From Onthophagus taurus (taxonomy: Eukaryota; Arthropoda; Insecta; Coleoptera; Scarabaeidae), in NCBI RefSeq assembly GCF_036711975.1, contig NW_027248947.1, forward strand, positions 682,001 through 746,000: a stretch of 64,000 nt of DNA, given 5' to 3'. The position numbers were made by a program, and so were the translations under genes. The notes beneath the pieces were generated by a model. That model was given only the letters and a program-made list of their open reading frames with translations, searched no databases and had not been told where the DNA came from. This document shows, in pieces, positions 12,666 through 59,969 of this stretch (position 1 is its first letter; every line of letters starts with the position of its first letter).

Positions 12666-13184
12666 TTACAGCATAAATTTCGATTGGTTTACATAATTTT
12701 TTAATATTAATGCGTTGTTTTGCGAACATACGGCTGGGAACCCGTTATGACACCAACACACATCTAACGAAACATTTAATTTAATCTCTTCGGCTACATT
12801 ACATTTTTCTAGCGATAGGTCGATAATCTTTAAATTTCTACAAAATCGATTTGGATGGCATGGACGATTTTTCAAAAAATGTGCCTTCTGGTTCCCCTTC
12901 ACATAGATGAGATCATAGTTTGAAATGGTATCATCGAGCAGCTTCAAACCCATACCTTGATTGATCCAGCCATCGTTAAAACCCAATCGATGATGATGCC
13001 GTTCTAAATATCTACAAAACTTCTGGTCCTTTTCGTTCAGCGCTCGGAATGGTTTGCTTGACTGAAGATGTAAATGTAACGTGTGGGATGTGTCTAAATC
13101 TATGAGAGTGACTTCTCTGGCTTCAAATTCTGAATCGACTTGAACACCTTGAAGATCTACAACTGCCGTACGTCTGAATGCCAT
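12666..13184 (-). CDS. DVQG-family protein (uncharacterised, Polinton-associated)
   Basis: 172 residues, intact. Homologues in this window are at 19,070, 28,514 and 56,917. Shared features are an N-terminal VVDxQG, then EVTLxDI, a central LExxHHxLxxxDGWINQ, VKGNQK, and a C-terminal CWxHxGxPAVCSQNN block. The Asp/Glu-rich N-terminus, His and C-terminal Cys/Asn block recall a degenerate RNase H or DEDD-exonuclease layout, but catalytic residues are not convincing. Function unknown. In Polinton 2 the homologue follows the capsid gene at the element's right end. A TATATATA stretch about 35 bp upstream may be a promoter. Confidence 0.6.
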   Translation of the reverse strand: MAFRRTAVVDLQGVQVDSEFEAREVTLIDLDTSHTLHLHLQSSKPFRALNEKDQKFCRYLERHHHRLGFNDGWINQGMGLKLLDDTISNYDLIYVKGNQKAHFLKNRPCHPNRFCRNLKIIDLSLEKCNVAEEIKLNVSLDVCWCHNGFPAVCSQNNALILKNYVNQSKFML

Positions 13185-43291: not shown

Positions 43292-43630
43292 TTATAATGC
43301 GTCCGATAATAAGAAATTTAAACATAAATAACCACAATTACTTGTGTTATAGGTTTGATATTGATGGTGATTATATTTAATAATTACATTATTTCCAGCA
43401 CTCTTGAAATAGTTCACAATTTCTTTACTTGGTTTTAAATTACCAAAACTATCAAAATAAGTAATTATATTTCCCTTCTTAATATAGGCTGTCCAATGAG
43501 TGCCAGGCCCTTTCACACTATCCAAGTTTATAATACGTCTTTCATTATTATTAATACGTATAGGCAATTTATCTTGCATGAATATCCCTCTAAACTCTGG
43601 TATTCCCAATATTTTTACATAACGCATCAA
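43292..43630 (-). CDS. Adenain-type cysteine protease (copy 3)
   Basis: 112 residues, open. GTHWTAYI (His), ITYFDSFG (Asp), Gln near YQTYNTSN and SNCGYLCLNF (Cys) fit the adenovirus-protease/Ulp1 triad. Near-identical to 54,227-54,565; Tyr replaces His after NCG. Polinton proteases mature the capsid. The frame is open although neighbouring genes are broken. It is short for the fold, but all catalytic blocks are present. Confidence 0.85.
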   Translation of the reverse strand: MMRYVKILGIPEFRGIFMQDKLPIRINNNERRIINLDSVKGPGTHWTAYIKKGNIITYFDSFGNLKPSKEIVNYFKSAGNNVIIKYNHHQYQTYNTSNCGYLCLNFLLSDAL

Positions 43631-43641
43631 GTCAACGTTTG

Positions 43642-44085
43642 TTAGCGCTTTCTGCTGTTGTATGGTTTTTCTTGGCGTGTCTTTAAAAAAACACCTAATC
43701 CTTTTTTATATGGTTTTAAATATAGACCTTTACCTAAAGCTATTGATTCCATCGTTTGATTATGTCTTTGACTTTCCTTGAGGGCCGCTTGTGCTTGCTT
43801 CGCTTTATTGACAGCACTTATAACGGAAGCAGTGCTACCTGCTAAAGCTCCTAATGCACTTAAACCAGCAAAAATTGAAATGGGTGGAAGGATACCCCCG
43901 TTTTTCGGAATTGTAATAATTCTAGAACGAGGTTTCTTTTTGACAATACCTTTTACGGCACGTAAAGCTAACTTTGCAGCAGATTTCAAATCATTAGTGC
44001 TTGACTCTTTTAATTTTATTTTAGCATTTTTAACGGCTCTATTAAAAGAAATGGCTTTTCCACTTGCTCTTTTCTTCATGGTCAT
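43642..44085 (-). CDS. pX-like basic/membrane-active core protein (copy 3)
   Basis: 147 residues. A Lys-rich amphipathic N-terminus is followed by GGILPPISIFAGLSALGALA, a hydrophobic stretch, then a basic tail (GLYLKPYKKGLGVFLKTR). Gly-Gly-Ile-Leu-Pro before an Ala/Gly-rich hydrophobic run is reminiscent of adenovirus pX-type proteins; the functional match is inferred. Homologue at 53,778-54,215. It lies 11 bp upstream of the protease gene. Confidence 0.65.
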   Translation of the reverse strand: MTMKKRASGKAISFNRAVKNAKIKLKESSTNDLKSAAKLALRAVKGIVKKKPRSRIITIPKNGGILPPISIFAGLSALGALAGSTASVISAVNKAKQAQAALKESQRHNQTMESIALGKGLYLKPYKKGLGVFLKTRQEKPYNSRKR

Positions 44086-44204
44086 CCAATCACTTCAATG
44101 GTCAACAGACAAATGAATATTATATGTTCAAATTCAGACTTATATAGGAATCAGTTATATCATAAACATGAAAGTGATAAAACAATCTTACACATTAAAT
44201 ATTG

Positions 44205-44488
44205 TGTAATAAATTAATATAACAAGAGTTTAATTACTCACCAAAATATAACAACAAAAGGAAAATGTTAATAAACGAATGAGTAACAAAATAGCTAGCG
44301 AAAAGGACGAAGAAAATATAATTGCATGTAAAATGCGCACAAACGAAAAGCGGAAGAGATACTAGCGATGCTGCATCTCTTTTAAAGTAATGCGCGAAGA
44401 AGTTTGATAATGCGTAGGTGGGGGTGCGAATTACAGCGAATTACATTGCGAATTAAAAGTATTTTAAATAGTTTAGCGCGGACTAAAC
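44205..44488. mobile_element. 284-bp insert with 8-bp target duplication
   Basis: AAATATTG occurs at 44,197-44,204 and 44,489-44,496. The matching place in Polinton 2 (about 53,660) has one copy and no insert. The ends show no clear TIR. The 8-bp duplication would suit a hAT-type MITE, but the family is open. Confidence 0.65.
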
Positions 44489-44587
44489 AAATATTGATGA
44501 TATTGATAATCACTTCAATGGTCAACAGACAAATGAACATTATATATTCAAAATCAAACTTATATAAGAGTTAGTTATACAATAAAC

Positions 44588-45287
44588 ATGAAAGTGATAA
44601 AACAACCTTACACATTAAATGTTGATGATGTAACAATACAATTTAATACCTAGTAATAATCAATCACCTCAAAACAGAAAGCATAGTTATTTATTTCCAA
44701 ATAATCTACGTTGCATAATATCCGGACCTTCTAACTCTGGTAAAACAAATCTGATAATTAGCTTATTACAGGATCCTAATGGACTATCATTTCAAAATGT
44801 GTATGTGTATTCAAAGTCATTGTATCAAAGCAAATATGAATATTTGAGAAAATTGCTGCAGTCTATAAAAGGGTTAGGATATTATGAGTATAGCAGTAGT
44901 GATGACATGCATCCTTCCAAAGCGAATGAAGATTCGGTTTTTATATTTGATGATGTAGCATGCGATAAACAATCAATTATTCGTGATTATTTTTGTATGG
45001 GACGACATAAGGCAATAGATAGTTTTTATTTATGTCAGAGTTACACACATATTCCAAAGCATTTAATACGTTATAATGCAAACTTTTTAATACTTTTCAA
45101 ACAAGATGATCTAAATTTAAGACATATTTATAACGATCATGTAATATCCGATATGAAATTCAATGTCTTTAAGAAAATGTGTTCAATATGTTGGAAAGAT
45201 AGATTCGGATTTTTTGTAATCAGTAAGGAGGACGATATGAACAATGGTAGATATCGTAATGGGTTTCATTACTATATAAAACTATGA
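44588..45287 (+). pseudogene. Packaging ATPase (copy 3), frameshifted
   Basis: Starts MKVIKQPYTLNVDDVT, then a small insertion near 44,650 shifts the frame into a stop. Downstream, Walker A and the rest (FIFDDVACDKQS, YLCQSYTHIPKHLIR) are readable. The Ile codon before MHPSK is lost. Intact homologue at 52,869-53,564. The stop TGA overlaps the PLA2 start. Confidence 0.85.
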
Positions 45288-45655
45288 TTGTGTATGTTTC
45301 TATATCAGTCATGTTAGTTATACGAATAGGTGGAGAGCTGCATTTACCCGGCTATCAGTTCTGCGGACCTGGGACAAATCTCACGAAACGCTTAGCAAGT
45401 GGAGATCCTGGCATTAATGACCTTGATAGAGCATGTAAACGTCATGATTTAGCCTATACACAATACACAGATTTACACAATCGACATATAGCAGATAAAG
45501 TGTTAGCTGAAGAAGCATGGAAAAGAGTATTAGCGAAAGATTCCTCGATTGATGAAAAAGCTAACGCATGGTTTGTTACTAACGCGATGAAAGTAAAACA
45601 AAAGTTGGGTTTCGGATTGGAGAATCCGAAAAAGTATCGGTGTTTCAACCGATAA
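45284..45655 (+). CDS. Parvovirus-type phospholipase A2 (copy 3)
   Basis: 123 residues, open. Calcium-loop CGPGTN and active site DRACKRHDLAY. Short hydrophobic N-terminus. Its ATG overlaps the ATPase stop (ATGA). Near-identical to 52,501-52,872. It lies downstream of the dead ATPase. Confidence 0.85.
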   Translation: MIVYVSISVMLVIRIGGELHLPGYQFCGPGTNLTKRLASGDPGINDLDRACKRHDLAYTQYTDLHNRHIADKVLAEEAWKRVLAKDSSIDEKANAWFVTNAMKVKQKLGFGLENPKKYRCFNR

Positions 45656-45735
45656 ATGCGGTTGGTCGGATAAAACGGATCGGTTAAAACCGGTCGGATA
45701 AAACAGATCAGTTAAAGCCGACCTGTACAGTTCCT
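45641..45735. repeat. Short tandem ATCGGTTAAAACCGGTCGGATAAAAC-type repeats after PLA2 (copy 3)
   Basis: Three to four units of about 26 bp overlapping the PLA2 stop codon, each containing a GGTTAAAACC near-palindrome. Counterpart at 52,400-52,510; relatives at 13.55-14.0 kb. Confidence 0.7.
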
Positions 45736-45803
45736 AAAAAACATAAAACTCTACAGTAAGCTCATGCATTAGTCAGTAAGCGTTCATTCGTTGTACAGAA
45801 AAC

Positions 45804-46900
45804 ATGGACTCAAAACAATTAACACGAAAGCTTATTAAAACAAGAGAAAATGTTAGAAAGAAATTGGATAAATTAAAAGCAAGGAAACATAAATCTGAAC
45901 ATTTGCTTCAACAGCAATATAAAGCAGTAACAACCCCTTTAGAAAAAATAATTTCCACAATTAAACATCCTATTAAAGTTAAGAAGGGGGAGGAGGAGGA
46001 GGAGGAGGAGGAAGAGCTTAAATCGGAGGAAGTTAAAGAAGAATTTAAAACAATAATACCTACAAAGAAAAGAAGAGTATCAAAAGCAGTACAACAACAA
46101 CAACAAGCGCCTCAATCACCAACAATATCAATATTAAGCGATCACGATGACGACGTTTTTGCAACATCTCCATCACTACCACCGCAACCAACGCAAACAT
46201 CACCACCTGCAGCAGCAGCGACAGCAGCAGATGTATCTCCATTACCAGAAACTATGAATATTCCTGAAGAATCATTTTTCTTATACTTGGAACAATTTGC
46301 TGCCGATCCTACATTGAGGGTTATGTAAGAGATGATAACAATGAATTCGATTATAGCAACAAGGGAGTTCGTGTTAATATTTTAACTGATAAATATTACA
46401 TTGGAGATAGTGAAATATCCTTTAGTAGTAAAACGAATGATATAACCATTGCAAATAAAACTTATAAGGATACGAAAGGTCTGTATGAGCTAATTTTCAA
46501 AAGGGAGCCAGAACAATTTACTAGTGATGATCAAAAGAATTACGTTGAAATACTTAAAACAACAGCAGCATTAAACAAAAATCAGGATAAAAGCAAACAA
46601 ATTATGGGTGACAAGTCGGACAAGTACCGTCAAATAATTGCACCTGTTTTAAATGCAACGGAAGGAGTTGTACGACGGAGCAGAGTAAAAAGCGTTCCTG
46701 TTCGTATGAGAACTGGTGAAGGTCTCATGCAGCAGCACTACAATAATCAACGGTCAAATTTTATTTATTGGGATGATCCTAATGAATTAGTAAATAGATT
46801 AAAACTTTTAATAGCCTCTCAGCTTGCCGGTAATACGTCACATGGTAATGAAATTAATAGTATTATAGAAGAGTTACGAGAAGCTCATATAATTGTATAA
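45804..46900 (+). pseudogene. DUF8207-like structural protein (copy 3), frameshifted
   Basis: Same order as 51,216-52,331: Lys-rich N-terminus (MDSKQLTRKLIKTR), Glu-rich stretch (longer here), Pro/Gln-rich region, then EESFFLYLEQFA. A small deletion after this block (about 46,300) shifts the frame to a stop at 46,328. The C-terminal part, including QIIAPVLNATEGVVRRSRVK, is open from about 46,330 in another frame to 46,900. Confidence 0.82.
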
Positions 46901-46927
46901 ACCTACAATACATTCATCATTTTAGTT

Positions 46928-48016: not shown

Positions 48017-48022
48017 CGCGTT
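48017..48022. other. Target site duplication CGCGTT, left
   Basis: Six bases directly before the Polinton terminus AGTAGTGT. The same CGCGTT follows the right terminus at 59,964-59,969. Six bp is the standard Polinton duplication. Confidence 0.92.
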
Positions 48023-48070
48023 AGTAGTGTAAAAAGGCCGATTCTGGACAGGAAGTGATCCTGATCCTCC

Positions 48071-48120
48071 CTCGCGCATGCGCAGTGAAGCGGATATGAC
48101 GTCAGCGCATGCGCAGTACG
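48071..48120. promoter_or_regulatory. Cluster of NRF1-like and CRE-like sites in TIR
   Basis: Two GCGCATGCGC palindromes (about 48,074-48,083 and 48,105-48,114) flank TGACGTCA (48,097-48,104). These match consensus sites for NRF1 and CREB/ATF factors. The right TIR has the mirror image near 59,870-59,915. Promoter or replication function is inferred. Confidence 0.45.
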
Positions 48121-48129
48121 TGCATGTAA

Positions 48130-48455
48130 TGTTGCCTACCTCGTGGGGCGCCACCTAGCGGTAGATAGCGGAACTAACCACCTAGCGGTGGGTGGTGGAA
48201 CTAACGCCATGTTGGTTGGTTGCCTACTTCATGGGACGCCACCTAGCGGTGGGTGGTGGAACTAACGTCATGTTGGTTGCCTACTTCATGGGACGCCACC
48301 TAGCGGTGGGTGGTGGAACTAAGGTGGGTGGTGAAACTAACGCCATGTTGGTTGCCTACTTCATGGGACGCCACCTAGCGGTGGGTGGTGGAACTAACGC
48401 CATGTTGGTTGCCTACTTCATGGGACGCCACCTAGCGGTGGATGGTGGAACTTAG
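48130..48455. repeat. Tandem array of about 57-bp units in TIR
   Basis: About five units containing GTTGGTTGCCTACTTCATGG and GACGCCACCTAGCGGTGGGT. The frame through it is an artefact of the repeat. The right TIR has about seven units. Confidence 0.9.
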
Positions 48456-48984
48456 CGGTTTAGAGTTCCGTAGGGCGCGGTAAGGGGGTTGGGTGATAGA
48501 TGGCGCGCGTAAATTTAAAATTGGTGTCACCTAGCGGTGGAACGTTGAGTGATAAATGGCGCGCGTCTGGGCGTTCTAAATCAAAATCCCATAAGATTTA
48601 ACATAGGGGAGTCCGAAATCACATTTTATCCCTACCACTACCTCCTTTTGAGGTTCTGACCACGCCCACATTTTAAAGTCCCAAGAACCCTCTTTTTCCG
48701 GAAAATTTGAATGCTGCTATCTAACACCACGATGACGTCATCGTCGATACATGAGGACACAAAGCTTGGTGTTGCCTGATGGGCGGTAGACGAACGAAAT
48801 ATACATAATACTTACTTGTTATAGGAATTGAACTGATAGCTGCAAGGAGAAATCTAGAAACTTTAAAGTCAATAAACCACCGAAACCTTTCCAGTTTAAT
48901 GCAGTTGAACAGAACAAAAAATAAAAAAACAAAAATAAATATTAATTTATTAATTAAAACATAAATTTAATAATACAATTAGAT

Positions 48985-49180
48985 TAATAAACCTCCGCGA
49001 TACGTTTTGGTAAAAATACGAATAAACCATCCTACAAATCAACAACTGATGGCCATGTAGATGATGTAATCCGCTTCACAGACGTAAATCACATATAATT
49101 TATTCACTTCTAATTCAGATATGTTCTTCTTCGGGGCAAATTGATACTGCTCTATAACTGATTTAAACGTGACATACTAG
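48985..49180 (-). pseudogene. OB-like TIR gene, decayed (Polinton 2, left)
   Basis: Several frames carry SRLNQL, FAPKKNISEL, a Tyr-Val-Ile piece and FLPKRIAEVY, in the order of the family at 909-1256, with stops and frame breaks. The identical ruin is in the right TIR, so decay predates the last TIR homogenisation. Confidence 0.65.
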
Positions 49181-49533
49181 CTTGAGTTGCTTTATAACGT
49201 GAGCGAGCGGTGTGAGCAGTAGTAGAAGGTAACAACTGACTTCTATATGAAAATTTTAACCGTTTATACCATCGGGAACAACCTTGAAAAATGTTAGCAT
49301 GTGTGTTGCACAACAACAACAATAACTTAAACGTTTATACGTAATTAGACGAATATAAAGTTGTTATACAATGCAAATAATATATTATGCATTTTATTTT
49401 CTCGAATCTTCGCCGCACCTTGATTTATTGACAGTGTATGCAAATAGAAATGCAAATGAAAATAGAAATTTAAAATGCAATAAAATAAAGTTGACTATAA
49501 TACAATGTATGACGCGTTTTAACTGGAATAAAT

Positions 49534-49728
49534 ATGAAATCGGTTCGATTTAAGGAAGAGATTGAGATTTATGAAGTAGAGTGTGATGATGTACATAAAA
49601 GAGCAAGAAGTGGACGGGAATGGTTAGAGGCGGTAATTGATAGACAACGATTTCAAAGACGTATTAAGGAAATTGAACGAATTGTTGATAAAATATTGCG
49701 TGAAAAATTGTTAAAAATGAATGAATAA
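49534..49728 (+). CDS. PPP1R15/GADD34-like mini-protein (left TIR)
   Basis: 64 residues. PP1-docking RVxF-type motif SVRF at residues 3-6, followed by acidic/hydrophobic IEIYEVE. Then RSGREWLEAVIDRQRFQRRI (25-44), matching the conserved PPP1R15 core with its Trp (W30) and D-R-x-R-F-x-R-R-I block (36-44). In animals this core recruits PP1 to dephosphorylate eIF2-alpha and restores translation after stress; several DNA viruses carry similar short proteins against PKR-type shut-off. The match is by motif; activity is inferred. The right TIR encodes an identical product, while the OB-like gene in the same TIR is dead. An upstream 60-codon ORF (49,371-49,553) overlaps its start in another frame and looks spurious. 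Confidence 0.8.
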   Translation: MKSVRFKEEIEIYEVECDDVHKRARSGREWLEAVIDRQRFQRRIKEIERIVDKILREKLLKMNE

Positions 49729-49922
49729 ATAAAACTTAATAAAATATATATTGTTTTAATTACTTTAGTTTTAGTATACAGTTGTATAAAACCTATTGAT
49801 GCACAAAAGAACCGTTTAAACAAAACATATAATTTGAAGGTGGAGGAGATAAGTATACTACTAAAATAAGGGCCAGATAACATATTAAAAAGGTTGTTTT
49901 ATTTAAAAAAATCTAATTACTA

Positions 49923-50846
49923 CTACACAATATCTGATTTCTTAATCCAACTTCTTTCATCTATTCCAAACCACTTGACGTACATTCTGTTTCCTTTCCG
50001 TTTTAGAATCTTTTCAATCAACTGTATGTCAGGATAATGAGTCCGTTGTAATTCTTCAGTATAGAAAGCTCCTTTAATGTCATCACCTTTCAAATCTTGT
50101 AGTAAATACGTCACTGGATTACTATATTGAATCTTAACAATTTTAAAAACTTCATTGCTCCAGTTAGGAGTATACCCTTTGGTGAACACACCACGATGTT
50201 TAGATATTCTTACAAAGTCATTCAAATGAAATTTTGTGTGTAATGTTTGACTTTGATAATGTGTTTTTCTATTATAAACAGTACGCAATAGCTTTTCCTC
50301 ATCCGCCTCTATTGGTTTCATACCTGTAGTGGAATGCTTGCGGGTATTATATATTAATAAAATTTGCGGTAATAAATTTAACCATTTAAAAGATCCCTGA
50401 ACACTAAATTCTTTCCACATTAAACCTTTTAAAGTTCTATTTAAACGTTCAACGATAGATGCTTTTAACGAGCTAAACGTAGAGTAATGATTAATTTTTA
50501 ATTTACTCATAAGTGACATAAAATCTTTATTATAAAACTCTTTTCCTTGATCGGTTTGAAGGTTTTTTGGTACGTTTGCATCCTTTAAAATACTTTTCAT
50601 TGCTTTAGTAACATCTTTACCTGATTTAGTTTTTACCGGAACAGCCCATGCATATTTGCTAAAGACATCAATTACAACGAGTATATAACGATAACCACTA
50701 TTTTGTCGTGCATAAGGTATCATCTCTACTAAATCAGCCTGGTATAAATCATTTATCCCTTTAGTAAGTACATGTCTTCTTTTAAAATGTATTCGAGCAG
50801 GTTTATGAAGTTCTTCAGCTAATTTTCTTTTAATATCAGAGGACAT
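49923..50846 (-). CDS. Polinton integrase with chromodomain
   Basis: 307 residues, intact. Retroviral-type core: D38 (YQADLVEM), D99 (LQTDQGKEF), E133 (SIVERLNRTLK). An SH3-like region (FVRISKHRGVFTKGY) is followed by a C-terminal chromodomain (about 268-307, VKWFGIDERSWIKKSDIV). An N-terminal HHCC finger is not evident, so the start may be further upstream or lost. It inserts the element with a 6-bp duplication, as seen here. First gene after the left TIR; its 5' end overlaps the ORF of the neighbour, an operon-like packing. Confidence 0.93.
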   Translation of the reverse strand: MSSDIKRKLAEELHKPARIHFKRRHVLTKGINDLYQADLVEMIPYARQNSGYRYILVVIDVFSKYAWAVPVKTKSGKDVTKAMKSILKDANVPKNLQTDQGKEFYNKDFMSLMSKLKINHYSTFSSLKASIVERLNRTLKGLMWKEFSVQGSFKWLNLLPQILLIYNTRKHSTTGMKPIEADEEKLLRTVYNRKTHYQSQTLHTKFHLNDFVRISKHRGVFTKGYTPNWSNEVFKIVKIQYSNPVTYLLQDLKGDDIKGAFYTEELQRTHYPDIQLIEKILKRKGNRMYVKWFGIDERSWIKKSDIV

Positions 50847-51187
50847 GTTAGTACGATTTCTACAAACAGTGTATTAATCGTCGCAGTAGGAGATGGAATG
50901 AATTTTAATCTGTCACCTTTCTTCAATTTGATACCCTTCCCATTTGAGCTATCATAAATCCTATTGTTTACTATAAGAGTGGTGTCCGATGGCACAATGG
51001 TGATAGAGTAAATTTCTCCTGATTCAATAGGAAAAATATAATATCTGTTGAAATTACTCAGCGCATAACTATGTCCAGCTTTCGCACCAGTCAAAGTAAT
51101 ATTCAAATAAGAATAATATTTATGTTCTATTGAGGAGGAGGAAGAAGAAGAAGAAGAAATATGATGTCCGAACTTGTGGATAGTCAT
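50819..51187 (-). CDS. Small beta-rich protein, candidate minor virion component
   Basis: 122 residues from the Met of MTIHKFGHH; an upstream Met at 51,223 would overlap the preceding gene's end. A Ser run (nine Ser) is followed by beta-strand-like sequence (YSYLNITLTGAKAGHSYALS, YYIFPIESGEIYSITIV, LKKGDRLKFIPS). No named domain recognised. The position between a structural gene and integrase, and the single beta-domain size, would suit a spike or receptor-binding component, but that is speculation. Only the first codons survive in copy 3. Confidence 0.55.
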   Translation of the reverse strand: MTIHKFGHHISSSSSSSSSIEHKYYSYLNITLTGAKAGHSYALSNFNRYYIFPIESGEIYSITIVPSDTTLIVNNRIYDSSNGKGIKLKKGDRLKFIPSPTATINTLFVEIVLTCPLILKEN

Positions 51188-51215
51188 AACTAAAATGATA
51201 TAATGTATTGTAGGT

Positions 51216-52331
51216 TTATACAATTATATGAGCTTCTCGTAACTCTTCTATAATACTATTAATTTCATTACCATGTGACGTATTACCGGCAAGCTGAGAG
51301 GCTATTAAAAGTTTTAATCTATCTACTAATTCATTAGGATCATCCCAATAAATAAAATTTGACCGTTGATTATTGTACTGCTGCTGCATGAGACCTTCAC
51401 CAGTTCTCATACGAACAGGAACGCTTTTTACTCTAGTCCGTCGTACAACTCCTTCCGTTGTATTTAAAACAGGTGCAATTATTTGACGATACTTGTCCGA
51501 CTTGTCACCCATAATTTGTTTGCTTTTATCTTGATTTTTGTTTAATGCTGCTGTTGTTTTAAGTATTTCAACGTAATTCTTTTGATCATCACTGGTATAT
51601 TGTTCTGGTTCCCTCTTGAAGATTAGCTCATACAGACCTTTCGTACCCTTATAAGTTTTATTTGCAATGGTTATATCATTCGTTTTACTACTAAAGAATA
51701 TTTCACTATTTCCAATGGTATATTTATCAGTTAAAATATCAACATGAACTCCCTTGTTGCTGGAATCGAATTCATTGCTATCATCTCTTACATAGCCCTC
51801 AATGTAAGATCTTGTTAGAGGAGCAAATTGTTCCAAGTATAAGAAAAATGATTCTTCAGGAATATTCATAGTTTCTGGTAATGGAGATACATCTGCTGCT
51901 GTCGCTGCTGCTGCTGCAGGTGGTGATGTTTGCGTTGGTTGCGGTGGTGGTGATGGAGATGTTGCAAAAACATCTTCATCATCATCGCTTAATATTGATA
52001 TTGTTGGTGATTGAGGCGCTTGTTGTTGTCGATGAAGTTCTGGTAGACGTGATGCTTGCACTGCTTCTGATACTCTTCTTTTCTTTGTAGGTATTACTGT
52101 TTTAAATTCTTCTTCTTTAACTTCCTCCGATTTAAGCTCCTCCTCCTCCTTCTTAACTTTAATAGGATGTTTAATTGTGGAAATTATTTTTTCTAAAGGG
52201 GTTGTTACTGCTTTATATTGCTGTTGAAGCAAATGTTCAGATTTATGTTTCCTTGCTTTTAATGTATCCAATTTCTTTTTCACATTTGCTCTTGTTTTAA
52301 TAAGCTTTCGTGTTAATTGTTTTGAGTCCAT
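51216..52331 (-). CDS. DUF8207-like virion-associated protein
   Basis: 371 residues, intact. Lys-rich coiled N-terminus (KLIKTRANVKKKLDTLKARK), acidic segment, Pro/Gln/Ala-rich low-complexity middle (about 95-150), then EESFFLYLEQFA, YIEGYVRDDSNEFD, YKGTKGLYELIFKREPEQYT and DKYRQIIAPVL. The C-terminal half resembles the domain often labelled DUF8207 in arthropod Maverick proteins, by recollection only. Role unknown; likely structural or core. It shares orientation with integrase, PLA2 and ATPase. Confidence 0.65.
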   Translation of the reverse strand: MDSKQLTRKLIKTRANVKKKLDTLKARKHKSEHLLQQQYKAVTTPLEKIISTIKHPIKVKKEEEELKSEEVKEEEFKTVIPTKKRRVSEAVQASRLPELHRQQQAPQSPTISILSDDDEDVFATSPSPPPQPTQTSPPAAAAATAADVSPLPETMNIPEESFFLYLEQFAPLTRSYIEGYVRDDSNEFDSSNKGVHVDILTDKYTIGNSEIFFSSKTNDITIANKTYKGTKGLYELIFKREPEQYTSDDQKNYVEILKTTAALNKNQDKSKQIMGDKSDKYRQIIAPVLNTTEGVVRRTRVKSVPVRMRTGEGLMQQQYNNQRSNFIYWDDPNELVDRLKLLIASQLAGNTSHGNEINSIIEELREAHIIV

Positions 52332-52399
52332 GTTTTCTGTACAATGAATGAACGGTTACTGACTAATGCATGTGCTTACTGTAGAGTTTTATTGAAACT

Positions 52400-52510
52400 A
52401 TTCAGGCCGGTTTTAACCGATCCGTTTTATCCGATCGGTTTTAACCGATCTGTTTTATCCGACCGGTTTTAACCGATCTGTTTTATCCGACCAACCGCAT
52501 TTATCGGTTG
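52400..52510. repeat. Short tandem repeats between PLA2 and DUF8207-like genes
   Basis: Units of about 26 bp, CCGGTTTTAACCGATCTGTT then TTATCCGA, three to four copies, starting within the last PLA2 codons. Each has GGTTTTAACC self-complementarity, so the transcript could form stacked hairpins, perhaps a terminator or processing signal for the upstream gene. Confidence 0.7.
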
Positions 52511-52872
52511 TAACACCGATACTTTTTCGGATTCTTCAAACCGAAACCTAACTTTCGTTTTACTTTCATCGCATTAGTAACAAACCATGCGTTAGCTTTT
52601 TCACCAATCGATGAATCTTTCGCCAATACTCTTTTCCATGCTTCTTCAGCTAATACTTTATCTGCTTTATGTCGATTGTGTAAATCTGTGTATTGTGTAT
52701 AGGCTAAATCGTGACGTTTACATGCTCTATCAAGGTCATTAATACCAGGATCTCCACGTGCTAAGCGTTTCATAAGATTTGTCCCGGGTCCACAGAACTG
52801 ATAGCCGGGTAAATGCAGCTCTCCACCTGTTCGTATCACTAACATGACTGATATAGAAACATACACAATCAC
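52501..52872 (-). CDS. Parvovirus-type phospholipase A2
   Basis: 123 residues. LPGYQFCGPGTN gives the calcium loop; DRACKRHDLAY gives catalytic H54-D55. The N-terminus is hydrophobic. This domain type lets parvovirus VP1 breach endosomal membranes; a virion entry role here is inferred. ATG overlaps the ATPase stop by four bases (ATGA), implying coupled translation. The basic C-terminus (KRKLGFGLKNPKK) may be a nuclear signal. Confidence 0.88.
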   Translation of the reverse strand: MIVYVSISVMLVIRTGGELHLPGYQFCGPGTNLMKRLARGDPGINDLDRACKRHDLAYTQYTDLHNRHKADKVLAEEAWKRVLAKDSSIGEKANAWFVTNAMKVKRKLGFGLKNPKKYRCYNR

Positions 52873-53564
52873 AGTTTTATATAGTAATGAAACCCATTAC
52901 GATATCTACCATTGTTCATATCGTCCTCCTTACTGATTACAAAAAATCCAAATCTATCTTTCCAACACATTGAACACATTTTCTTAAAGACATTGAATTT
53001 CATATCGGTTGTTACATGATCATTATAAATATGTTTTAAATTTAGATCATCTTGTTTGAAAAGTATTAAAAAGTTTGCATTATCACGTATTAAATGCTTT
53101 GGAATATGTGTGTAACTCTGACATAAATAAAAACTATCTATTGCCTTATGTCGTCCCATACAAAAATAATCACGAATAATTGATTGTTTATCGCATGCTA
53201 CATCATCAAATATAAAAACCGAATCTTCATTCGCTTTAGAAGGATGCATTATGTCATCACTACTGCTATACTCATAATATCCTAAACCTTTTATAGGCTG
53301 CAGCAATTTTCTCAAATATTCATATTTGTTTTGATACAATGACTTTGAATACACATACACATTTTTAAATGATAGTCCATTAGGATCCTGTAATAAGCTA
53401 ATTATCAGATTTGTTTTACCAGAGTTAGAAGGTCCGGATATAATGCAACGTAGATTATTTGGAAATAAATAACTATGCTTTCTGTTTTGAGGTGATTGAT
53501 TATTATTAAATTGCATTGTTACATCATCAACATTTAATGTGTAAGGTTGTTTTATCACTTTCAT
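52869..53564 (-). CDS. Polinton FtsK/HerA-type packaging ATPase
   Basis: 231 residues, intact. Walker A GPSNSGKTN at 44-52 and Walker B-like VFIFDD at 116-121, then SFYLCQSYTHIPKHLIRDNA. It pumps element DNA into the capsid. The start lies in one of two tandem promoter copies. Confidence 0.93.
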   Translation of the reverse strand: MKVIKQPYTLNVDDVTMQFNNNQSPQNRKHSYLFPNNLRCIISGPSNSGKTNLIISLLQDPNGLSFKNVYVYSKSLYQNKYEYLRKLLQPIKGLGYYEYSSSDDIMHPSKANEDSVFIFDDVACDKQSIIRDYFCMGRHKAIDSFYLCQSYTHIPKHLIRDNANFLILFKQDDLNLKHIYNDHVTTDMKFNVFKKMCSMCWKDRFGFFVISKEDDMNNGRYRNGFHYYIKL

Positions 53565-53777
53565 GTTTATTGTATAACTAACTATTATATAAGTTTGATT
53601 TTGAATATATAATGTTCATTTGTCTGTTGACCATTGAAGCGATTATCAATATCATCAATATTTAATGTGTAAGGTTGTTTTATCACTTTCATGTTTATGG
53701 TATAACTGACTCCTTTATAAGACTGAATTTAAACATATAATATTCATTTGTCTGTTGACCATTGAAGTGATTGGACC
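53565..53777. promoter_or_regulatory. Divergent promoter region with tandem duplication
   Basis: Lies between ATPase (minus) and pX-like (plus). About 110-130 bp containing TCACTTTCATGTTTAT, a TATAAG box (TATATAAGTTTG; TTTATAAGACTG) and TTCATTTGTCTGTTGACCAT occurs twice in direct orientation. The first copy includes the ATPase ATG and the second ends 12 bp before the pX-like ATG. Copy 3 has the same duplication (about 44,085-44,600), so it predates their split. Confidence 0.65.
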
Positions 53778-54215
53778 ATGAAGAAAGGAGCAAGTGGAAA
53801 AGCGATTTCTTTTAATAAAGCCGTTAAAAATGCTAAAATAAAATTAAAAGAGTCAAGCACTAATGATTTGAAATCTGCTGCAAAGTTAGCTTTACGTGCC
53901 GTAAAAGGTATTGTCAAAAAGAAACCTCGTTCTAGAGTTATTACAATTCCAAAAAGCGGTGGTATACTTCCGCTCATTCCAATTTTTGCTGGTTTAAGTG
54001 CATTAGGAGCTCTAGCAGGTGGCACTGCTTCCGTTATAAGTGCTGTCAATAAAACGAAGCAAGCACAAGCGGCACTCAAGGAAAGTCAAAGACATAATCA
54101 AACGATGGAATCAATAGCTTTAGGTAAAGGTCTGTATTTAAAACCATATAAAAAAGGATTAGGTGTTTTTTTAAAGACACGCCAAGAAAAACCATACAAC
54201 AGCAGAAAGCGCTAA
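53778..54215 (+). CDS. pX-like basic/membrane-active core protein
   Basis: 145 residues, intact. Lys-rich amphipathic N-terminus (1-55), hydrophobic segment 61-90 beginning GGILPLIPIFAG, a Gln/His-containing helix, and a basic C-terminus (GLYLKPYKKGLGVF). The Gly-Gly-Ile-Leu-Pro plus Gly/Ala-rich run suggests relation to adenovirus core protein pX, which condenses DNA and is cut by the viral protease; the next gene here is that protease. No cleavage site is proposed. Related proteins have been noted in adintoviruses, by recollection. Confidence 0.68.
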   Translation: MKKGASGKAISFNKAVKNAKIKLKESSTNDLKSAAKLALRAVKGIVKKKPRSRVITIPKSGGILPLIPIFAGLSALGALAGGTASVISAVNKTKQAQAALKESQRHNQTMESIALGKGLYLKPYKKGLGVFLKTRQEKPYNSRKR

Positions 54216-54226
54216 CAAACGTTGAC

Positions 54227-54565
54227 TTGATGCGTTATGTGAAAATATTAGGGATACCAGAGTTTAGAGGGATATTCATGCAAGATAAATTACCTGTGCG
54301 TATTAATAATAATGAAAGAGGTATTATTAACTTGGATAGTGTGAAAGGACCTGGTACTCATTGGACAGCCTATATTAAAAAGGGAAATATAATTACTTAT
54401 TTCGATAGTTTTGGTAATTTAAAACCAAGTAAAGAAATTGTCAATTATTTCAAGAGTGCAGGAAATAATGTAATTATTAAATATAATCACCATCAATATC
54501 AAACCTATAACACAAGTAATTGTGGTCATTTATGTTTAAATTTCTTATCATCAGACGCATTATAG
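54227..54565 (+). CDS. Adenain-type cysteine protease
   Basis: 112 residues. Triad H45 (GTHWTAY), D60 (ITYFDSFG), C99 (SNCGHLCLNF), with Gln near 90-92 for the oxyanion hole. Ulp1/adenovirus-protease family; matures virion proteins in Polintons. It begins 11 bp after the pX-like stop and ends 16 bp before the penton start, so the right-half genes are tightly packed. Confidence 0.9.
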   Translation: MMRYVKILGIPEFRGIFMQDKLPVRINNNERGIINLDSVKGPGTHWTAYIKKGNIITYFDSFGNLKPSKEIVNYFKSAGNNVIIKYNHHQYQTYNTSNCGHLCLNFLSSDAL

Positions 54566-54581
54566 TTTCAACAATCAAAGG

Positions 54582-55289
54582 ATGTGGACGTTTGATTTAG
54601 TAGGAAAAACATCTGTTCTAACAGCAAATTATCACCCTGCAATAGAACTGAATCCTAATTATCAATATGAACTGGCACTTGTAAGCTTTGATGGATACAA
54701 CTCAATTCCAAATATTGACGAAACAAATAATTGCTTAAAAATTGATAATGAATTGATAGCACTACCAACAGGATCTTATGAATTAACACACATTTCGAAT
54801 GCCATTAATAAACAACTTAAAGAAAAGAATATTAAAGGTGTGAACTTTAGCCTACAAGCAAATGAGGATACTCTACAAGCAGTGATCACATGTAACAAAA
54901 CTATTGATTTTAATGTAAACAACTCCATCTCAACAATATTAGGATTTAATAAATCAGATGTACTGGATCCAATAAAATCCCCGCATAGAGCTCGCAATAT
55001 TGTAGATATATTTAAAGTAAATTCTATACAAGTACTATGTAGCATAACACATGGAGCTTATCACAACGACATACCTGCGCACACTATCTACTCATTTTTC
55101 CCTACAGTACCTAAAGGTTATAAAATATCAGAAACTCCCCACAATTTAATATATATGCCTCTGAATACACAAATAATTAATAATATTACCCTTAAAATAG
55201 TTGATCAAAACGGATTGTTGGTCAATTTCAGAGGAGAAGTCATCAAGATAAGACTACATTTAAAGCTCTCTAGTAATAATGGTTCTTAA
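54582..55289 (+). CDS. Penton/minor capsid protein (Polinton PX-like)
   Basis: 235 residues, intact. Typical Polinton minor-capsid blocks: YELALVSFDGYNSIPNI, LPTGSYELTHISNAINKQL, NNSISTILGF, then HNDIPAHTIYSFFPTVPKGY. Expected to be a single jelly-roll at capsid vertices; the fold is inferred from family and position. The copy at 37,024/42,682 is broken. Confidence 0.82.
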   Translation: MWTFDLVGKTSVLTANYHPAIELNPNYQYELALVSFDGYNSIPNIDETNNCLKIDNELIALPTGSYELTHISNAINKQLKEKNIKGVNFSLQANEDTLQAVITCNKTIDFNVNNSISTILGFNKSDVLDPIKSPHRARNIVDIFKVNSIQVLCSITHGAYHNDIPAHTIYSFFPTVPKGYKISETPHNLIYMPLNTQIINNITLKIVDQNGLLVNFRGEVIKIRLHLKLSSNNGS

Positions 55290-55420
55290 GGTAAAAGGTA
55301 ATATAAACCCACAAAATCAAACCAATACTTTTAGTTCTCTTCACACTGTGAAACAGTTAACACCTCAAAACAAACAATTTCTTGAATCATTAGGTTTACA
55401 ATTAATAAAATAATAACAAT

Positions 55421-56623
55421 ATGAGTATCTTAAACGTCTCTGATAAAGTACAATTTGATAATTCACTCGTACGGATTCAGTATCATAATCATTTACCATA
55501 CTCATCAAATTCTTTTAACAATAGCGATGAAATTCGTATTGCAATTCAATAACAGGACGTTTACACGTTACCAAGTCAATCTTTTATTTACGTACAAGGG
55601 AAACTATTGAAAGATGACGGAACCGTTGATAAAGATTCAAAATTGTCAGCAAATCCGATCGCTCATATGTTTAGTGAAGTACGATTTGAATGTGGAGGGA
55701 ACGTAATTGACAGAGTAAGAAATCCAGGAATAGCTAGCACATTAAAAAATCTTTGCTCATTAACAAGATCGGAATACTATCATGCCTCTAACGCAGGTTT
55801 CGAATATCCAAATGTTAAAGTAAATGAAAATACAGGAGATTTTAATTTTTGTGTTCCCTTGAAATATTTTCTTGGGTTCGCAGAAGATTATAATAAAATT
55901 TTGATAAATCTCCGTCAAGAATTAGTTTTAGTACGCAGTAATTCAGACAAGAATGTTATCGAAAGTCTTTTACCTAATGTGGCGATTACTATTAATAAAA
56001 TAGTATGGAAAGTTCCTCATGTTTCTGTAGCCGATGTTGAACGTTTAAAACTTTTAGAGTACATTGAACAAGGAATTGAATTGGACATGGGATTTAGATC
56101 ATTTGATTTACATGAATACCCATCATTACCAAAAAATAGACAACACACATGGACAATTAAAACATCTACTCAATTAGAAAAGCCCAGATACTTTATATTA
56201 GGGTTTCAAATCAATAGAAAAGATAATCCGTTACGTTCTGCATCACAATTTGACCACTGTAATTTAACAGATATGAAAGTGTTTTTAAATAGTGAGAAAT
56301 ATCCCTATGAAGCTTTAAATTTAAATTTTAAGACAGGTCAAATTGCAGTTTTATATGAAATGTATTGTAATTTCGCAAAGACCTATTACGATCGAGAACT
56401 TGCAGAACCAATGTTTAACAGAGATACATTTTTAGCACATACACCGATTATTGTAATTGATTGTTCACGGCAAAATGATATTTTAAATGTTGGAACCGTT
56501 GATATTCGCATTGAATTTGAAACGAGTGAAGAGATACCTAATGCTACTTCCCTCTACTGTTTAATCTTACACGATCGTGTTTTCAAATATGTTCCTTTAA
56601 CTGGTATGATTAATCAAATATAG
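55421..56623 (+). pseudogene. Major capsid protein candidate, one nonsense codon
   Basis: ATG at 55,421; TAA at 55,550-55,552 (codon 44), where the homologue at 35,284-36,477 has Gln. The frame reopens and runs to 56,623. The remaining sequence is well preserved and includes the correct C-terminus (KYVPLTGMINQI). The Pol-encoded particle could not form from this copy alone unless the stop is read through or an internal Met (55,607) is used. Confidence 0.75.
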
Positions 56624-56629
56624 ATCAGT

Positions 56630-56780
56630 TTGTAAACAACTCTATCTCATCGACATAACGTTTTAGTAAATTAGATGTACTGGATCCAATAAAATTCCCA
56701 CACAGCGCTCGAAATATTGTAGATATATTTAAAGTAACTTATATGCAAGTATAATGTAACATAACACATACCTGCATAAT
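56630..56780. repeat. Partial duplication of penton-gene sequence after the capsid gene
   Basis: AACAACTCTATCTCA...GATGTACTGGATCCAATAAA repeats the NNSIST...KSDVLDPIK segment of the penton gene (54,918-55,040) with decay. Copy 3 has part of it at 35,205-35,265. A scar of gene conversion or an old paralogue. Confidence 0.7.
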
Positions 56781-56869
56781 TTTACTGAAACATAAATAAC
56801 TTTGGAATTCGAAATACTCAGAAGTTATTTATAATCATTACGTACATTCTTTAATAATTTTACAAAAAC

Positions 56870-56905
56870 CTTTGAGTGGGGAGGTATCTATAGTTATAAA
56901 TTACA
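56870..56905 (+). pseudogene. Residual C-terminus of the second capsid-like gene
   Basis: KPLSGEVSIVI matches the end of the fragments at 23,843 and 28,164, directly upstream of the DVQG gene as in those arms. Shows that a second capsid-like gene once preceded DVQG here. Confidence 0.65.
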
Positions 56906-56916
56906 TTTATTACAAT

Positions 56917-57426
56917 ATGAAGTTCAGATGTGCGGTTGTAGACGTTCAAGGGTTTTACGTCAACTCTAAATTCGAAGTTAAAGAATTTACTCTTCTGGAT
57001 ATTACCGCCACCGGCTACATTATACATTTACACCTAAAGCCGAGCGTACCATTCCAACGATTAAACGTTGAAGATCAGAGGTCAGTAAGATATTTAGAAC
57101 GCAACCATCATAGGTTGATATATAACGATGGGTGGATAAATCAATCGGAAGGTCTAAATGTAATTGATGGTTTAATTTCCTCCTACGATCAAATATTTGT
57201 TAAGGGAAATCAAAAGAAGCAGTTTTTGGAAACACGTAACCATAATAATAATTCAATAATAACAGATATTGCGTTAGAATTTGCGGAAGAGGATGAAACT
57301 AAATTAAATTCAACCTCCAATCAATGTTGGTTTCACGTCGGCTGTTGTCCAGCGGTATGTTCACAGAACAATGTTTTAATTTTAAAAAAATTTTTATGTA
57401 AACAAAATAAATTTAATTGTATTTAA
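56917..57426 (+). CDS. DVQG-family protein (Polinton 2)
   Basis: 169 residues from MKFRCAVVDVQGFYV; a longer in-frame start at 56,872 lies in capsid-like remnant sequence and is less likely. Intact, unlike the palindrome-arm copies. Blocks KEFTLLDI, LERNHHRL, NDGWINQSEG, VKGNQKKQF, then CWFHVGCCPAVCSQNN. Last gene before the right TIR. Function unknown. Confidence 0.68.
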   Translation: MKFRCAVVDVQGFYVNSKFEVKEFTLLDITATGYIIHLHLKPSVPFQRLNVEDQRSVRYLERNHHRLIYNDGWINQSEGLNVIDGLISSYDQIFVKGNQKKQFLETRNHNNNSIITDIALEFAEEDETKLNSTSNQCWFHVGCCPAVCSQNNVLILKKFLCKQNKFNCI

Positions 57427-58086
57427 GTTGCCTGGATTATTATTAGAAATATTCCTATTGTATTATTAAATTTATGTGTTAATCAATAAATTAATATTTA
57501 TTTTTGTTAAAAAATATGCATTTTAATACTATCAAAATAATTGTATCTTTATTCTCTTTTACCACCATCACCAGATGGCGTCACATGAATTTTAAATTTA
57601 CGCGCGCCATCTATCGCCCATCAGGCAACACCTAGCGCGCGTCATTTATCGCTCAACGCTTTGTGTCCGCATGTATCGACGATGACGTCATCGTGATAAG
57701 GCCCGTCGATCTAGATAGCCTCATTCAAATTTCCCGCCAAAAAGAGGGTTCTTGGAGAATGCTGCGCTCCGATTGGTTGAATTTAAAATGTGGGCGTGGC
57801 CAGAAGGAGGTAGTGGTGGGGATAAAATGTGATTTCGGACTCCCCTATATTAAATCTTATGGGAGTTTGGTCCAGAACGCCTATAGCTATACGCACGCTA
57901 TCTATCGCTCATCAGATGAATTTAAAATGTGTACGTGGTCAGAAGGAGGTAGTGGTGGGGATAAAAAGTACTTTTGGACCCCCCTACGTTAAATCTTATG
58001 GGATTTTGATTTAGAACGCCCATAGCTATATGCGCGTCATTTATTGCTCAATAAAAATTTTAAAGCTACATGTATTTTAATACTAC
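57427..58086. repeat. Diverged partial duplications of TIR sequence
   Basis: Two blocks (about 57,590-57,880 and 57,900-58,070) resemble the TIR segment at 59,085-59,335: GAAGGAGGTAGTGGTGGGGA, TTTCGGACTCCCCTA and CTTATGGGATTTTGATTTAG. No gene is supported; the ORFs over it follow the repeat. Confidence 0.75.
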
Positions 58087-58148
58087 TTTATACAACTGTA
58101 TACTAAAACTAAAGTAATTAAAACAATATATATTTTATTAAGTTTTAT

Positions 58149-58343
58149 TTATTCATTCATTTTTAACAATTTTTCACGCAATATTTTATCAACAATTCGT
58201 TCAATTTCTTTAATACGTCTTTGAAATCGTTGTCTATCAATTACCGCCTCTAACCATTCCCGTCCACTTCTTGCTCTTTTATGTACATCATCACACTCTA
58301 CTTCATAAATCTCAATCTCTTCCTTAAATCGAACCGATTTCAT
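58149..58343 (-). CDS. PPP1R15/GADD34-like mini-protein (right TIR)
   Basis: Product identical to 49,534-49,728, transcribed toward the element's interior. Two doses per element follow from residence in the TIR. The preceding 60-codon ORF (58,324-58,506) is the same spurious overlap. Confidence 0.8.
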   Translation of the reverse strand: MKSVRFKEEIEIYEVECDDVHKRARSGREWLEAVIDRQRFQRRIKEIERIVDKILREKLLKMNE

Positions 58344-58724
58344 ATTTATTCCAGTTAAAACGCGTCATACATTGTATTATAGTCAACTTTATTTTATTGC
58401 ATTTTAAATTTCTATTTTCATTTGCATTTCTATTTGCATACACTGTCAATAAATCAAGGTGCGGCGAAGATTCGAGAAAATAAAATGCATAATATATTAT
58501 TTGCATTGTATAACAACTTTATATTCGTCTAATTACGTATAAACGTTTAAGTTATTGTTGTTGTTGTGCAACACACATGCTAACATTTTTCAAGGTTGTT
58601 CCCGATGGTATAAACGGTTAAAATTTTCATATAGAAGTCAGTTGTTACCTTCTACTACTGCTCACACCGCTCGCTCACGTTATAAAGCAACTCAAGCTAG
58701 TATGTCACGTTTAAATCAGTTATA

Positions 58725-58905
58725 GAGCAGTATCAATTTGCCCCGAAGAAGAACATATCTGAATTAGAAGTGAATAAATTATATGTGATTTACGTCTGTG
58801 AAGCGGATTACATCATCTACATGACCATCAGTTGTTGATTTGTAGGATGGTTTATTCGTATTTTTACCAAAACGTATCGCGGAGGTTTATTAATCTAATT
58901 GTATT
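58725..58905 (+). pseudogene. OB-like TIR gene, decayed (Polinton 2, right)
   Basis: Mirror of 48,985-49,180 with the same stops: MSRLNQL followed by a stop, then FAPKKNISEL in another frame, then FLPKRIAEVY. Confidence 0.65.
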
Positions 58906-59421
58906 ATTAAATTTATGTTTTAATTAATAAATTAATATTTATTTTTGTTTTTTTATTTTTTGTTCTGTTCAACTGCATTAAACTGGAAAGGTTTCGGTGG
59001 TTTATTGACTTTAAAGTTTCTAGATTTCTCCTTGCAGCTATCAGTTCAATTCCTATAACAAGTAAGTATTATGTATATTTCGTTCGTCTACCGCCCATCA
59101 GGCAACACCAAGCTTTGTGTCCTCATGTATCGACGATGACGTCATCGTGGTGTTAGATAGCAGCATTCAAATTTTCCGGAAAAAGAGGGTTCTTGGGACT
59201 TTAAAATGTGGGCGTGGTCAGAACCTCAAAAGGAGGTAGTGGTAGGGATAAAATGTGATTTCGGACTCCCCTATGTTAAATCTTATGGGATTTTGATTTA
59301 GAACGCCCAGACGCGCGCCATTTATCACTCAACGTTCCACCGCTAGGTGACACCAATTTTAAATTTACGCGCGCCATCTATCACCCAACCCCCTTACCGC
59401 GCCCTACGGAACTCTAAACCG

Positions 59422-59850
59422 CTAAGTTCCACCATCCACCGCTAGGTGGCGTCCCATGAAGTAGGCAACCAACATGGCGTTAGTTCCACCACCCACCGCT
59501 AGGTGGCGTCCCATGAAGTAGGCAACCAACATGGCGTTAGTTCCACCACCCACCTTAGTTCCACCACCCACCGCTAGGTGGCGTCCCATGAAGTAGGCAA
59601 CCAACATGACGTTAGTTCCACCACCCACCGCTAGGTGGCGTCCCATGAAGTAGGCAACCAACATGGCGTTAGTTTCACCACCCACCTTAGTTCCACCACC
59701 CACCGCTAGGTGGCGTCCCATGAAGTAGGCAACCAACATGACGTTAGTTCCACCACCCACCGCTAGGTGGCGTCCCATGAAGTAGGCAACCAACCGCTAG
59801 GTGGTTAGTTCCGCTATCTACCGCTAGGTGGCGCCCCACGAGGTAGGCAA
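59422..59850. repeat. Tandem array of about 57-bp units, right TIR
   Basis: About seven units of the same sequence as 48,130-48,455, including two places where GTGGTGGAACTAAGGTGGGT-type junctions repeat at half-unit spacing. Confidence 0.9.
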
Positions 59851-59963
59851 CCAACATTACATGCACGTACTGCGCATGCGCTGACGTCATATCCGCTTCA
59901 CTGCGCATGCGCGAGGGAGGATCAGGATCACTTCCTGTCCAGAATCGGCCTTTTTACACTACT

Positions 59964-59969
59964 CGCGTT
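59964..59969. other. Target site duplication CGCGTT, right
   Basis: Directly follows the right terminus; identical to 48,017-48,022. Confidence 0.92.

Follow-up and report, generated by a model that had tools for sequence, protein, structure and literature searches.

The locus raises the question of whether a virus-like transposon of the beetle Onthophagus taurus carries its own version of GADD34, the host regulator with which cells turn protein synthesis back on after stress. The window (the whole stretch of 64,000 nucleotides analysed here) had been predicted, from its letters alone, to contain a Polinton whose terminal inverted repeats (TIRs) encode, in two copies, a minimal PPP1R15/GADD34-like protein. 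We consider it probable that this ORF encodes a stripped-down PPP1R15 (GADD34/CReP) core which would tether PP1 to phospho-eIF2-alpha and thus keep translation running. At the level of sequence, the demonstrated part of this explanation is the homology, the RVxF motif, the retention of most actin and eIF2-alpha contact residues, the recurrence in nine groups and the constraint between groups; the tethering of PP1 to phospho-eIF2-alpha would be the most likely way in which the Polinton protein works.

The ORF and the Polinton that carries it

The ORF lies on the forward strand at 49534–49728 and translates into 64 amino acids plus a stop. Its product starts with MKSVRF, contains GREWLEAVIDRQRFQRRI and displays all of the motifs originally claimed, namely SVRF (residues 3–6), G-x-x-W (G-R-E-W, 27–30) and D-R-x-R-F-x-R-R-I (D-R-Q-R-F-Q-R-R-I, 36–44). 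AATAAA polyadenylation-like signals (49724–49743, forward strand), putative in function, overlap the stop codon and extend just past it. Translation of the reverse strand at 58149–58343 confirmed a second copy with an identical product, the two ORFs being a single synonymous base apart (ORF position 135).

Both copies sit within the TIRs of a Polinton inserted at 48023–59963 (11,941 bp) and flanked by a perfect 6-bp target duplication (CGCGTT at 48017–48022 and 59964–59969). The left TIR (48023–49790) has the terminus 5'-AGTAGTGTAAAAAGG and the outer end of the right TIR (58087–59963), at 59963, likewise reads 5'-AGTAGTGTAAAAAGG; the inverted-repeat core comprises 1,576 nt with a complementarity of 100% (a rounded figure). 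The element encodes a retroviral-type integrase (49923–50846, reverse strand; PF00665, E = 1.1e-14), a phospholipase A2-like (PLA2) gene (52501–52845, reverse; PF08398, E = 6e-15), an A32-type packaging ATPase (52869–53564, reverse; PF04665, E = 8.4e-9), a C48-like cysteine protease that stays below the cut-off (54230–54565, forward; E = 0.0061), a double-jelly-roll (DJR) major capsid protein (55667–56623, forward; PF21738, E = 8.9e-106), the similarity to which begins upstream at 55421, and a gene that we call 'DMQGF' (56917–57426, forward), homologous to a domain that, in groups C and I described below, is joined to the PPP1R15 core. Each TIR also holds a piece resembling a 115-aa-type gene and interrupted by stops (48990–49082, reverse, on the left; 58795–58887, forward, on the right), which bears out the predicted decay of the neighbouring TIR gene. 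Tandem repeats with steps of 57 and 18 bp are present in both TIRs (48158–48512 and 59365–59857), and their copy number differs between the arms.

The TIRs, the 6-bp target duplication, the integrase, the A32 ATPase, the protease and the DJR capsid are common to this element and known Polinton/Maverick elements, from which it differs in its PPP1R15 gene, its lack of a PolB match and its length of 11.9 kb. With queries from the window, two of which were confirmed as PolB by PF03175, tblastn gave no PolB match inside 48023–59963, and because of this the label 'adintovirus', previously attached to the element, does not fit the window copy. The termini and target duplication are perfect, yet PolB is without a match; nine similarly spaced pairs of copies of the ORF in the genome (see below) suggest a PolB-less subfamily, perhaps dependent on the polymerase of other elements.

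Further Polinton sequence occurs elsewhere in the window. A second, partly decayed fragment (43292–46914) adjoins the first element in inverted order, with protease, ATPase, PLA2 and a 98-aa gene, and is 89–98% complementary to it, in pieces. A matrixin metalloprotease gene of 555 aa (10901–12568, reverse; PF00413, E = 3.8e-33) adjoins a DMQGF gene (12666–13184) and apparently belongs to another Polinton of the window.

Homology to the PPP1R15 core

Searched against solved structures (PDB), the window protein matched asfarvirus DP71L best (9nb9_B, E = 1.7e-6, residues 2–60); human PPP1R15B appeared only at E = 0.34, ranked behind armadillo-repeat designs matching by composition. The sole Pfam family was PF10488 (PP1c_bdg), at E = 0.016 and 15.3 bits against a gathering score of 26.1. 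Taken alone, these PF10488 and DP71L matches are suggestive. The identity of the ORF becomes firm because of its relatives in the genome, which we assign to groups A (that of the window) to I. Group C exceeds the Pfam cut-off (28.1 bits, E = 2.1e-6), and its PDB matches include DP71L (E = 1.6e-6), PPP1R15B (4v0u, 3.1e-6) and PPP1R15A (7nzm, 2e-5). Against PF10488, groups B, F and G gave E-values of 3.3e-5, 5.9e-5 and 2.4e-4, and the gathering score was missed by B, D, E, F and G as by the window protein. An HMM built from groups B, C, D and E, with A left out, found the window protein at 65.9 bits (E = 2.6e-18), whereas none of 20,000 shuffles exceeded 16.8 bits; when it was run on the 191 window ORFs of at least 40 aa, both PPP1R15-core copies included, no other window ORF was among the eight best matches listed. 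The DP71L match, the Pfam and PDB matches of group C and the B–E HMM together support the prediction of a Polinton with a minimal PPP1R15 core. The anticipated match to the PPP1R15 profile was obtained with group C, and group A was reached through the B–E HMM, but the window copy itself remained below the Pfam cut-off.

Known proteins of this type resemble the window protein to different extents. The short form of African swine fever virus DP71L (9nb9) is, like it, a stand-alone core of about 70 aa with KxVRF, W...DRxRFQRRI and a hydrophobic tail, whereas its linker from VRF to W is shorter (PDB-search alignment) and its gene is that of a large cytoplasmic DNA virus infecting pigs, not part of the terminal repeat of an integrating element. 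Mammalian PPP1R15A/GADD34 and PPP1R15B/CReP and the single Drosophila PPP1R15 have the same 70-residue C-terminal functional core, preceded by long N-terminal regions that the window protein lacks. The 70-residue core is described as sufficient to repress the ISR in cells (PMC4394352). AlphaFold2 modelled the window protein as a single helix (residues 20–63) with a low-confidence N-terminus (mean pLDDT 70.9, pTM 0.42), which is consistent with the known PPP1R15 core and by itself no evidence for it.

Contact residues and proposed mechanism

The RVxF motif of human PPP1R15A is reported to bind PP1, W582 to pack on PP1, F592, R595 and R612 to bind actin, and R587, D588, R591 and R594 to touch eIF2-alpha (PMC8500838). 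Seven columns, W30, D36, R39, F40, R43, I44 and L55 in window numbering, are invariant in eight aligned sequences (groups A, B, C, D, E, F and G and the database protein P0005). Counted from the Trp, five of these seven residues equal the human contacts W582, D588, R591, F592 and R595 (hypergeometric P = 5.5e-5 with seven contact residues, 1.4e-4 with R612 as the eighth). By the same count, V-x-F, W30, D36, R39, F40, R42 and R43 are retained in the window protein, which has I35 in place of R587 and lacks an Arg at the distance of R612. The RVxF docking motif is present as S3-V4-R5-F6, and F6 is invariant across the six sequences of alignment A2; group F departs from the motif, with KVRI in place of KVxF. 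For DP71L, function is stated to need V16, F18, L57 and L61 (PMC5346070), and these align in the PDB search with V4, F6, V51 and L55 of the window protein, the position of V51 being L in subfamilies A2 and A3.

In the mechanism that we propose, expression of the element would yield a putative adaptor that binds host PP1 through S-V-R-F and whose W...D-R-x-R-F-x-R-R-I helix would recruit G-actin and phospho-eIF2-alpha. PP1 brought to eIF2-alpha would dephosphorylate it, and the proteins of the element (capsid, integrase and ATPase) could still be translated despite an eIF2-alpha kinase activated by infection or stress. The anti-defence role that formed part of the original prediction is thereby a putative one.

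Copies across the genome

Three queries of the host assembly (290.8 Mb in 33 contigs) gave match counts that are lower bounds, and part of the places were read. The window protein returned at least 70 match rows, of which 41, at 76–100% identity, constitute group A, the rest being fragments and more distant groups. The group G query gave at least 147 rows, three of them overlapping rows of the window protein and 141 of the 147 without a stop inside the match; the group C query gave at least 129, including eight core matches that were new relative to the other two queries and 60 weak rows (E = 2.4–7.8, core residues 40–62 only) left out of the count. Some of the resulting 222 rows are pieces of one gene, and we therefore speak of more than 200 places. 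At four of the ten contig ends read (L078, L079, L081 and L085) we saw the telomeric repeat (TTGGG)n, and two ends were N; this insect-type motif has been described in beetles, Odonata, Hymenoptera and Neuroptera (PMC12564400, PMC8233369).

The PPP1R15-like cores form at least nine divergent groups with three gene orders. Polinton genes lie beside the core in seven of the nine; G and I are linked via a shared neighbour gene or the fused domain only. Class 1 consists of A and B (c. 48% identical). All 12 full-length group B copies stand tail to tail with a 242-aa gene, with a PolB-like gene beyond it in 11 of the 12; the name 'ANK' first given to this neighbour was dropped, as Pfam finds no family in it. 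In the stretches examined around the 41 A loci, an integrase was present at 27 and a DMQGF gene at 11, and a relative of the 242-aa gene at four (L018, L027, L029 and L045); in L018 and L045 the integrase and the 242-aa relative occur together, and L063 has none of the three genes. Class 2 (C, D, I and H) has the core directly before the DMQGF gene. In group C the two form one open frame of 231 aa (six copies, a seventh, L054, being truncated) and in group I one that measures 229 or 250 aa. In group D (L053, L093) the frame of the core ends and DMQGF is read in a different one, as overlapping genes or through a frameshift; the group H copy (L074) contains a single stop. The class 3 cores (E, F and G) are 73–74 aa long and follow the end of a 267-aa-type gene, E also standing before a PLA2 gene; F-type rows (query residues 1–71) make up 63 of the 147 rows of the group G query, among the matches listed.

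One F element was read through its DMQGF region (L090): about 2 kb from the F core, the DMQGF frame starts with a stretch similar to the end of a class 2 core, and the same element keeps another PPP1R15 core (L069). F elements therefore seem to have lost one such core and kept another, and the 60 weak group C rows, a few of which were compared by eye, seem to be the same vestige beside other F copies. Of the groupings in a tree of 12 cores, (E,F,G) alone had firm support (97/98), and the cellular protein took no firm position; that the core occupies three gene positions suggests that it was gained or moved several times.

Nine converging pairs of A copies, 8.6–9.0 kb apart, were found among the window-protein matches listed (two each on C2 and C3, one on C4, three on C6 and one on C22). 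The double dose in the TIRs, first proposed for the window element, thus extends to eight further pairs; it was seen in group A only, where no partner was listed for most copies with more differences, nor for a near-identical copy on C7. The TIR location therefore looks like a trait of one young subfamily; selection may maintain the double dose, or it may merely have followed from expansion of the TIR across the gene.

The in-frame fusion of the core to the DMQGF domain (L049:1992–2660, L091 and L092) involves two groups that are about 47% identical in the core. DMQGF genes recur in the window near 12.7, 19.1, 28.5 and 56.9 kb and at many other loci examined. The gene at 56917–57426 belongs to no Pfam family, and its sequence had two matches among solved structures (E = 0.086 and 0.12), which were of no use. 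The model of the fused protein was poor (pLDDT 52.6) and had no PDB match reaching E = 0.001 (the best was 5.9e-3); RNase H-like and exonuclease folds were frequent among the matches, a weak hint at the nature of the modelled domain. If DMQGF were a nuclease, the group C and I proteins would, speculatively, join a nuclease to a phosphatase adaptor. A wider reading, which we regard as possible but rather doubtful, is that control of eIF2-alpha is a common and repeatedly gained function of insect Polintons, that the fusion is a two-part suppressor and that the ISR is a main insect defence against virus-like transposons. Were this true, one part of the suppressor would remove the trigger RNA or DNA and the other would reverse the translational arrest.

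Selection on the PPP1R15-like protein

In group A the full frame is intact in 34 of 40 copies (L027, L029, L030, L064, L065 and L066 being those dropped from the frame set, with row C3:15020362 and the fragments outside it). Among 19 haplotypes, seven of the 13 changes common to at least two are synonymous where 24% would be expected (P = 0.02, a guide only, as the haplotypes are non-independent), and private changes are synonymous in seven of 25 (P = 0.40), as expected without selection. This is the pattern that selection during propagation, followed by neutrality after insertion, would give. Between groups, eight comparisons (A–B, A3–B, C–D, C–I, D–I, E–F, E–G and F–G) yielded pN/pS of 0.42–0.53, with dN of 0.39–0.48 and dS from 1.26 to beyond saturation. 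Within the group C core, pN was 0.015 and pS 0.009, without synonymous excess, and differences between group B copies were mostly nonsynonymous; in both groups they are few and recent. The hint of selection in the original prediction finds support in the between-group pN/pS and the shared group A changes, both of which we read as signs of constraint on the protein.

Alternative explanations

The evidence could also be accommodated by a PP1 adaptor of PPP1R15 ancestry that has been retuned from eIF2-alpha to another target, for example a capsid or DNA-binding protein of the element or a host transcription factor. Strong variation of the RVxF-to-W linker between groups would fit such a change, as would the loss of R587 in A, the variation of R594 between groups, the missing canonical RVxF phenylalanine in F and the fusion of the core to another domain in C and I. 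The residues equivalent to D588, R591, F592 and R595, which contact the eIF2-alpha beta-barrel or actin, are nevertheless invariant in the eight sequences, and this counts against retuning because an adaptor for PP1 only would not need them; we regard a new target as unlikely.

That the cores are functionless remnants of an old host-gene capture, hitch-hiking in elements so young that the frames are still intact, appears to us less likely again. Many copies are indeed near-identical products of recent bursts, the private changes in A look neutral and those within C and B are without a purifying signal; but intact frames are shared by groups whose proteins are only c. 50% identical and whose dS is close to saturation, shared A changes are enriched for synonymous ones, the neighbouring TIR gene has decayed and one F element has kept one core while losing another. 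A resemblance to PPP1R15 arising by chance in a short ORF with a charged, helical product is the least credible of these explanations, and we give it hardly any weight: the ORF is short, its Pfam score is under the cut-off and its composition also draws armadillo-repeat designs, but the shuffle and window-ORF controls, which we judge to refute chance, the curated cut-off passed by group C and the presence of this gene at more than 200 places and in three gene orders all argue the other way. A Polinton-encoded PPP1R15 core directed at eIF2-alpha remains the reading that we prefer.

Origin and relatives

Capture from this host, as originally proposed, is unproven because the host's own PPP1R15 was not found by a PF10488 search of the genome, by protein queries from A, G and C or by a degenerate DNA pattern. 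The matches fetched were all Polinton-type genes or fragments, those left unread being C8:20770203, C11:4393412 and C11:2554765 (weak rows of the group C query), two one-mismatch DNA-pattern rows and the majority of rows from groups E and F. A 222-aa frame at C6:27726039, considered as the host gene, proved to be a group F copy with its frame continuing from the preceding stretch. The host PPP1R15 may be hidden by an intron through the core, by divergence or by crowding of the search lists with repeats; in both mammalian isoforms the core is described as a separate exon (Chen et al., PMC4394352).

Among database proteins, P0004 is close to group E, P0007 equals group C over residues 1–64, and P0005 (71 aa; PF10488, E = 1.8e-4) and P0006 represent a further PPP1R15-like protein, all of these entries coming without genomic context; a query of the protein database with P0001 alone gave no match, and no relatives of the PPP1R15-like proteins were found in IMG/VR. 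Likened by description, coGV-gp036, herpes simplex gamma34.5 and TGEV protein 7 are viral PP1/eIF2-alpha adaptors and not Polintons; coGV-gp036, unlike the other two, comes from an insect virus, coGV being presumably a granulovirus. Adaptors of the PPP1R15 type are reviewed for herpes simplex virus (gamma34.5), asfarvirus and the coronavirus TGEV (protein 7) (PMC10807198), and coGV-gp036 is named as an insect-virus PPP1R15 in a figure legend (PMC4394352). As the original prediction had presumed, no report of PPP1R15 or GADD34 in Polintons, or of eIF2 in adintoviruses, was found in the literature searched, which mostly excludes subscription journals.

Significance

With a PPP1R15 core in integrating Polintons, at more than 200 places of one genome and in various gene orders, the known carriers of such cores gain a new class. 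By analogy with some herpes- and asfarviruses, it suggests that Polintons disarm the host's shutdown response, and also that a translation block based on eIF2-alpha restrains virus-like transposons in insects. The kinase usually said to be countered by viral mimics is PKR, and insects are not known to possess it; the finding therefore makes it testable which eIF2-alpha kinase acts on insect DNA elements. Polintons could, moreover, be a route by which PPP1R15 genes entered large DNA viruses, or the reverse.
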